A stretch of DNA of 64,000 nt from Pseudobdellovibrionaceae bacterium (lineage in GTDB: Bacteria; Bdellovibrionota; Bdellovibrionia; Bdellovibrionales; Bdellovibrionaceae): the NCBI GenBank assembly GCA_947449255.1, contig CANFQX010000004.1:1-64000 (forward strand). Reading direction: 5' to 3'. The notes under the pieces were generated by a model that worked only from the letters and a program-made list of their open reading frames with translations, did no database searches and had not been told where the DNA came from. This document shows positions 16,479 through 52,708 of the stretch, one piece after another. Positions within the stretch are counted from its first letter, which is position 1. Each line of letters starts with the position of its first letter. Made by a program: the position numbers and the translations under genes.

Positions 16479-16565
16479 ACTTCGCCCTCAAGCGCACGAT
16501 GCGCTTGAGGAAGGCCGCTCAGGATGGCCAGACAATGTCACACCAAGAGCAGCTGAATAAAAAAA
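16479..16565 (+). repeat. Dispersed hairpin element, copy A
   Basis: About 87 nt. It starts ACTTCGCCC, then a perfect 11-bp stem with CGA loop (16486-16510, arm CCTCAAGCGCA), then a second weak GGCCG/TGGCC stem, about 15 divergent bases, and CAGCTG plus an A-rich run. The first 54 bases are identical to copy B at 46742 and the layout equals copy C at 52622 (minus strand). The distance from first stem base to CAGCTG is 64 in all three. It lies 3' of smc, in opposite orientation to it. Confidence 0.85.
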
Positions 16566-23450: not shown

Positions 23451-23499
23451 CTTTGAACATTGTTATTACGCACCGAGTGGCAAAAAGGTACGGCGTACC

Positions 23500-26759: not shown

Positions 26760-27297
26760 CACATTTCTGATATAAATTGAGATTCGACAGAGCCTCTCTT
26801 GAAATTAATACTTTAGTCTAGCATCCTATGAATGAAGGAACTTGAATGGCTCACAGAGCATACCGAAGATAAAACTCTGAGTAGGTGAATGCTTGAAGGC
26901 CAGCAAAGGAGGACACTGATGAAGAAACGAATCCACGACCATCACGATGAACCACCGAAGTGAAGACGCTTCACAAGGATAGCTACAAAAAGAGCGAGAT
27001 ATTGAGTCTTTTGAAAAGGATCCGTTTTGAGTTAATTATTTAACTTTTTATAAGGAGGTTCTAAAGGAAGCTCAGTTAGGATAATATCCTTCTTTTGTCT
27101 CAAGGCAAAACGATAGAAATGTCGTTGCGCAAAACTAGAGGGGCTTCGTCTTCACGGACATGCCAGCCAGTTGCCAAAGGTATATGAGTCGCCTGAGGAA
27201 TTAAGGTGAGCAGATGGAAGGACAATACAAAAAATTGGTTTCATTCCCCTTAGCTTGCGAGTTATCAGTGACGATTTCTCGCAAGCATCTTTTTTTC
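26760..27297 (+). ncRNA. Candidate structured non-coding RNA of about 0.5 kb
   Basis: About 650 bases between two terminators hold no gene. The mrp transcript ends at about 26667, yet a second strong terminator on the same strand stands at 27253-27297, implying a separate plus-strand transcript between them. The region is rich in local complementarity: GTGAAGACG (26960-26968) pairs with CGTCTTCAC (27147-27155), GTGAAGACGCTTCAC and AGGATAATATCCT fold locally, and AGTTAATTATTTAACT is followed by T. A 24-codon frame (26889-26963) with an internal AAAGGAGG could be a leader peptide. It does not match RNase P, tmRNA, SRP or 6S patterns that I know. The 5' end is a guess. Confidence 0.4.
27253..27297 (+). 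terminator. Rho-independent terminator on the plus strand
   Basis: A perfect 9-bp stem (GCTTGCGAG and complement) with a 16-base loop, followed by ATCTTTTTTTC. The T run is on the plus strand only, so it does not serve the minus-strand mltD gene that ends at 27311. Confidence 0.75.
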
Positions 27298-46741: not shown

Positions 46742-46827
46742 ACTTCGCCCTCAAGCGCACGATGCGCTTGAGGAAGGCCGCTCAGGATGGCCAGAATAAC
46801 TCAGACCGAAAACAGCTGCAAAAAAAG
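46742..46827 (+). repeat. Dispersed hairpin element, copy B
   Basis: Identical to copy A for its first 54 bases, including the 11-bp stem at 46749-46773 and the GGCCG/TGGCC pair. After 15 divergent bases it ends ACAGCTGCAAAAAAA. Same orientation as hisS, lying between convergent hisS and lgt. Confidence 0.85.
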
Positions 46828-52621: not shown

Positions 52622-52708
52622 TTGCAGCTGCTCTCGGGCTTGCTTGATCTGGCCGTCCTGTGCGGCCTTCCTCAAGCGCATCGTGCGCTTGAGGCCAAAG
52701 TCTTGGGG
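52622..52708 (-). repeat. Dispersed hairpin element, copy C
   Basis: Minus-strand copy of the element. It has the same 11-bp stem (52694-52670), then GGCCG paired with CGGCC (a full Watson-Crick pair where copies A and B have a G-T wobble), divergent bases, and CAGCTGCAAAAAAA (CAGCTG at 52630-52625). It lies 3' of dnaK in the same orientation, just after the dnaK terminator. Confidence 0.8.

Follow-up and report, generated by a model that had tools for sequence, protein, structure and literature searches.

Three copies of a hairpin element, here called A, B and C, were located in the window, that is, the whole stretch of 64,000 nucleotides that was analysed. The features are as follows (bit scores refer to covariance model R1; the evidence for the parts is given in brackets).

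16479..16565, + strand: copy A, hairpin element, 105.9 bits
16486..16510, + strand: copy A, stem 1 (11 bp) with CGA loop (sequence, folding, word count)
16513..16529, + strand: copy A, second conserved block GGCCGCTCAGGATGGCC, weak stem 2 (folding, covariation analysis)
16550..16555, + strand: copy A, CAGCTG box, ahead of the A-rich tail (sequence)
46742..46827, + strand: copy B, hairpin element between the convergent genes hisS and lgt, 102.2 bits
46749..46773, + strand: copy B, stem 1 with CGA loop (sequence, word count)
46813..46818, + strand: copy B, CAGCTG box (sequence)
52622..52708, - strand: copy C, hairpin element between dnaK and an acetate-CoA ligase gene, 103.3 bits
52670..52694, - strand: copy C, stem 1 with CGA loop (sequence, word count)
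52625..52630, - strand: copy C, CAGCTG box (sequence)

The initial annotation had placed copies at these three coordinates and on these strands, and all of them were found in the window sequence. The 11-bp stem with a CGA loop that it described was exact in copies A, B and C, and the CAGCTG box lay 64 nt past the first stem base in 3/3 copies (16486/16550, 46749/46813 and 52694/52630). Genome-wide, this distance varied by a few nucleotides because the linker length varied. The 23-nt stem-loop word was present three times in the window, where 100 shuffles gave an expectation of 0.01, and the folding z-scores of the window copies were -2.6 to -2.9. The neighbours, which had been named as smc, hisS and dnaK, matched NCBIfam TIGR02168, TIGR00442 and NF001413/TIGR02350, respectively. 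Copies B and C were situated 3' of hisS and dnaK on the same strand as the gene, and copy A was on the strand opposite to smc, facing the smc 3' end.

The host genome of the window (G000; 3.21 Mb in 34 contigs), which from its gene content is probably a Bdellovibrio, was searched for further copies. An initial DNA search gave 40 scored copies. Model R1, which was built on a 44-copy alignment (A2; 44 of 45 copies, one truncated by a contig end being omitted), returned 57 rows at E <= 0.01, and these were reduced to 53 confident distinct copies (E < 1e-7), a count that does not include a palindromic site on contig C25 with weak matches on both strands. Further copies therefore exist, and their number is 53 rather than the hundreds per genome that had been predicted from the window. 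The density in G000 was approximately 1.06 copies per 64 kb, or about one per 60 kb, and the window with its three copies was above this average.

The copies of G000 show an intergenic and 3'-end bias. Gene context was determined for 42 of the 53 copies, those in arrays (9) or at a contig end (2) being omitted, with the longest open frames taken as gene calls without a gene finder. The neighbours of these 42 non-array copies were convergent gene pairs in 18 cases, co-directional pairs in 20 and divergent pairs in 4, and 56 of the 84 neighbouring gene ends were 3' ends. Both orientations relative to the neighbouring genes were found. Approximately half of the G000 copies were solo, with no carrier visible nearby.

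The element is approximately 87 nt long and is composed of a perfect palindrome of 10-11 bp with a 3-nt loop, a conserved block GGCYGCWCAGGAYGGCCAGA and a free linker (10-14 nt), which is followed by a box CCGAGAGCAGCTG and then by an A-rich end. When stem 1 was compared among 44 G000 copies, 39 pair-cells with double-sided changes, distributed over 7 of the 11 pairs, and no one-sided changes were observed; 4 of the 484 cells were unpaired, and none of the 484 contained a G-U intermediate. The whole-structure covariation score was 0.212, compared with 0.072 for shuffled alignments; it was reached by 0/500 shuffles and exceeded all slid controls. A wider alignment (A5; 30 rows from eight genomes) contained 77 double-sided, 2 one-sided and 28 unpaired cells in stem 1, and 16 of these 28 were at the innermost pair. 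The relatives had different letters in stem 1 with pairing kept, for example, ...GACGAGC/GCTCGTC... and ...CCTGGCC/GGCCAGG.... Thus, the structural covariation on which the initial annotation had staked its proposal is present in a larger alignment, and the covarying helix by which structured RNA families are judged is found in stem 1 only.

Stem 2 is a conserved block in which a helix is unproven and has little support. It had no double-sided change among the 44 copies of A2, and across the relatives in A5 it had a single one, with 69.7% of the cells paired. Since stem 2 lacked double-sided changes, the G-T to G-C change in copy C, one of five such cells in the 44 copies, is not structural evidence, contrary to its earlier reading as selection on structure.

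Conservation along the element was unequal. In 24 solo copies (24 of 44, with 8 MITE-like copies, 9 array copies and 3 from relatives omitted and one copy in an IS remnant, L039 = L125, kept), identity was 0.94 in stem 1, 0.94 in the stem-2 block and 0.84 in the CCGAGAGCAGCTG box; linker identity was 0.348, and 0.29 is predicted from base composition. The core and linker identities were 0.943 and 0.741 in MITE copies and 0.937 and 0.748 in array copies. Because the linker was not yet random in these copies of recent shared ancestry, it may be concluded that the linker is free to drift and that change in the core is restrained; judging by these values, the core changes about four times slower even among recent copies. 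Core and linker distances were uncorrelated (Mantel r -0.03, p 0.65). As an alternative explanation of linker saturation, linkers could be set anew at each insertion.

The family is patchy and mostly absent from sister species. Model R1 matched 6 of 66 family genomes (E <= 0.001) and 6 of 368 phylum genomes (E <= 1e-4). The wider model R2 matched 14 of the 66 family genomes, with 54 matches in G000, 18 in G020, 9 in G067, 8 in G013, 5 in G049, 4 in G058, 3 in G061 and 1-2 in each of seven others, and it had no matches in 16 of the 24 genomes of the genus. The pgk-tpiA spacer was filled by one copy in three species (G020, G013 and G003), with the stem altered and still paired. This spacer was parsed in 17 of the 24 genomes: 3 had the element, 9 (1-176 nt) did not, and a further 5 were 411-427 nt long; no base-by-base alignment was obtained for the element-free spacers. 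The empty-site comparison at dnaK failed because the congeners are ~75-84% identical there and their spacers could not be aligned. No match to the element was found in phage and plasmid records. The stretches with the core word in IMG/VR (3) and in a genome collection that may omit records close to the window genome (60) included none convincing by R1, the best having 20.8 bits.

Two related observations were made outside the main set. In G020 and G013, two hairpin subtypes formed BIME-like head-to-head pairs ~20-120 nt apart (L306-L309, L050 and L060). Hairpins of comparable design, more distantly related and possessing a separate conserved 3' part, stood at contig starts in two genomes from a different family of the order (L244 and L245 in G234, L243 in G233), which suggests a wider superfamily.

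The element is carried by an insertion sequence and by MITEs. The transposase of this insertion sequence was IS1-like (NCBIfam IS1, 51 bits, under the cut-off of 100), with no match in Pfam or among solved structures. A complete IS1-like element with terminal repeats was present in G013 (L066), where the hairpin was located between the transposase stop and the right terminal repeat; an IS1-like remnant in G000 (L125) had an identical layout. G000 also contained MITEs of ~160 bp in which 23-nt terminal repeats enclosed the hairpin. Of 52 G000 copies, 14 were clearly bordered on at least one side by a terminal repeat of the IS1-like element (at least 19/23 letters), and an automated test of 52 of the 53 copies (the C32 copy, truncated by the contig end, was omitted) flagged 15 at p<0.01 with ~1 expected by chance. 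At most other copies, no such terminal repeats were seen. The check for target duplications that had been suggested earlier covered 33 copies, at the ends of the 87-nt element itself, and revealed none; the shared-word length was 5.06 for own flanks and 4.81 for swapped ones. Because there was neither a target duplication nor an empty site that could be aligned at base level, insertion of the element as a unit is something that we only infer. A further setting was provided by arrays on contigs C24 and C33, in which same-orientation copies alternated with BrnT, Fic and DUF4143-ATPase genes and with other long repeats. The array units have long non-coding repeats in common, and therefore duplication explains the spacing of the copies.

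Among the open frames flanking the copies, one family recurred at 11 loci in five species. Its members had HNH matches, with weak DUF222 matches in 3 of the 4 tested. In G020, G011, G013 and G000, copies were situated ~276-412 nt upstream of HNH starts, and one MITE copy was 588 nt upstream. When copies were sought up to 700 nt upstream of DUF222-HNH genes, 5 such genes had one in G020 (expected 0.03, P 2e-10), 3 in G000 (expected 0.14, P 4e-4), 1 in G011 and 1 in G013. The HNH locus counts (12, 9, 10 and 1) came from rows merged by eye, and the outcome was unchanged with alternative counts (14 in G000 when every fragment was counted, 8 in G011 when split rows were merged). One G000 HNH gene, on contig C9, had a copy on both sides, and in G006 (L314 2765-2857) a relative of the hairpin was read in frame as part of a DUF222-HNH gene, within the linker that joins the two domains. 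On a tree of 29 HNH proteins, a selected subset of the loci, the hairpin label, which was also given to a gene whose copy lay at a distance of 808 nt and to another containing its copy, needed 7 changes (shuffled mean 9.6; 30 of 500 shuffles were as low). Therefore, the link between hairpin and HNH gene did not arise once and stay. G003 and G067 contained copies and no HNH match, and G049 contained both copies and HNH genes, which were not adjacent.

Side observations were made on the HNH genes themselves. A multicopy HNH type of G000 (L318, L319, L320 and others) had no hairpin of this family at its ends. It is a second DUF222-HNH unit of ~1.6 kb with sharp ends, which was present in 7-8 recently multiplied copies, ~79-91% identical (L318 1827-3624, L319, L320, L322, L323, L324 and L325), and looks like an undescribed HNH mobile element. 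Tandem repeats of 7- to 10-mers were seen in the leaders of several HNH genes near the hairpin (L306, L317 and L322).

The family is new to the libraries searched. In agreement with the earlier statement that it matched no known element of its kind, no Rfam family scored above its gathering threshold, so all Rfam candidates were rejected, and no description of such repeats in Bdellovibrio was found in the portions of the literature available to us. On balance, and with confidence only somewhat better than even, we favour the explanation that this is a new REP-like interspersed hairpin family that spread partly as a passenger of mobile genes and is probably read as DNA. According to this explanation, the element would move from one Bdellovibrio-type genome to another, and inside each of them, largely as a passenger of carriers of three kinds (the IS1-like element with its MITEs, DUF222-HNH genes, and arrays containing toxin-antitoxin genes); the solo copies would have come from transposition or excision out of such carriers. 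Once a copy has settled in an intergenic position, in most cases downstream of a 3' end, its core would be kept while the linker drifts, and selection presumably acts on each copy. HNH genes are not required, since G003 and G067 have copies and no HNH match and G049 has both at separate places; this, the roughly half of the G000 copies that have no visible carrier and the absence of target duplications count against the explanation.

The folded DNA hairpin may be recognised by a candidate protein, such as a transposase, an HNH nuclease or a host DNA-binding protein. Recognition in this form is proposed on the grounds that the long stem is altered only by exchange of entire Watson-Crick pairs, G-U intermediates being avoided; this lack of wobble pairs tips the choice toward DNA, with the reservation that few independent stem changes occurred within G000. 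The near absence of G-U suggests either a role for the pairing at the DNA level or the restoration of perfect palindromes during copying (by template switching or gene conversion).

The strongest competitor, to which we give a minor share of the probability, is that the copies are RNA elements in transcript 3' ends, serving as stabilisers, processing sites or protein-binding hairpins. Placement behind genes, the conserved unpaired boxes, the folding z-scores, the conservation of the core against a drifting linker and the pgk-tpiA site, occupied in three species with a changed and still paired stem, are all consistent with this. The second block would also expose A(N)GGA within a small loop, the arrangement typical of CsrA/RsmE sites. 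However, most stem-1 loops are CGA and not GGA, the absence of G-U intermediates would be unusual for RNA, the copies have both orientations relative to the adjoining genes, and most sister species lack them.

It is rather unlikely, in our estimation, that predatory bacteria possess an undescribed mobile system in which the hairpin serves as a recognition module common to several kinds of mobile genes, with the solo copies as a non-autonomous swarm. In such a system, a folded DNA (or RNA) hairpin would be used by the DUF222-HNH nuclease, the IS1-like transposase and the toxin-antitoxin arrays, and each lineage would keep a perfect palindrome by pairwise or template-switch change. Perhaps DUF222-HNH nucleases act on a shared hairpin module.

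A further reading, in which the DUF222-HNH nucleases are the mobiliser, cutting or nicking at or beside the hairpin and spreading it by homing, with solo copies being non-autonomous, appears slightly less plausible still. The copies upstream of HNH starts in four species, far above chance, the scattering of the hairpin label on the HNH tree, the C9 gene with copies on both sides and the G006 copy inside a reading frame would fit such an activity, but G003 and G067 have copies and no HNH match, and the multicopy HNH type of G000 is without the hairpin at its ends.

The resemblance to REP or MITE-like elements noted initially held in part: the element is a dispersed intergenic palindrome in many copies, and IS terminal repeats accompany 14 of 52, but the single RAYT-like gene of G000 is not flanked by it. 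Like REP/BIME elements with their RAYT, the hairpins are short intergenic palindromes in tens of copies with a species-specific stem and some head-to-head pairs; unlike them, they are longer (87 nt), have a second conserved block and a 3' box, and occur within an IS and in the company of HNH genes as carriers. That the hairpins are true REP elements mobilised by a RAYT (Y1 transposase), a link suggested earlier, is very improbable and already mostly refuted, despite the dispersed palindromes and the pairs in G020 and G013. The sole Y1/RAYT-like gene of G000 was bordered on both sides by another palindrome, GGTACGCCGTACC-TTTTTGCCACTC, and G011 and G022, with 10-12 Y1 genes, had one weak copy or none; Y1 genes were common in congeners without the element. 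Copies of the palindrome flanking this RAYT-like gene (C6:100649-100858) also occurred in arrays, and a diverged copy of this REP-like motif with 3 mismatches, GCACCGAGTGGCAAAAAGGTAC, was observed in the window at 23470-23491.

Integron attC sites have the core boxes GTTRRRY/RYYYAAC, and attC-like recombination sites of a gene-cassette system can practically be dismissed: in spite of palindromic sites in same-orientation arrays on C24 and C33 interleaved with toxin-antitoxin genes, no integron integrase was found above the cut-off in any of 10 genomes (0/10), no such boxes were seen in the 44-copy alignment, read by eye, and the array units share long non-coding repeats.

Several other classes were compared. 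The IS1-like MITEs agree with the element in that 14 of 52 copies are inside or beside terminal inverted repeats, and differ in that the other copies lack such repeats; the element is a cargo module of the MITEs and is not defined by them. An intrinsic terminator was rejected, as no T run directly followed stem 1, AAGG being found on one strand and SCRAAGT on the other. HEARO/IscB omega RNA elements consist of a hairpin linked to HNH-nuclease genes, plus solo copies, an arrangement also seen here. The adjacent gene in the present case was a DUF222-HNH gene and not an IscB gene (RuvC plus HNH); its similarity to IscB was weak and confined to the HNH domain, with 17-26 bits where the cut-off is 175. 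The linkers matched their own flanks no better than the flanks of other copies (6.85 versus 6.77 swapped), which speaks against a guide acting on neighbours. We know of no such hairpin in the mycobacterial REP13E12/DUF222-HNH repeats. These repeats, which are named in PMC10589994, share with the present loci the repetitive DUF222-HNH genes.

Small interspersed hairpins are usually explained by RAYT or MITE ends, and neither fits most copies here. A hairpin family common to three kinds of mobile genes, with a long perfect palindrome rewritten between species without wobble steps, offers a test case for how non-coding hairpins spread and for whether selection or DNA repair keeps palindromes perfect. 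The annotation of predatory bacteria likewise gains a repeat that can be recognised.

A c-di-GMP-I riboswitch (Rfam RF01051, 60.2 bits) was additionally found in the window at 27094-27178. It may correspond to the B. bacteriovorus merRNA described in PMC3627812.
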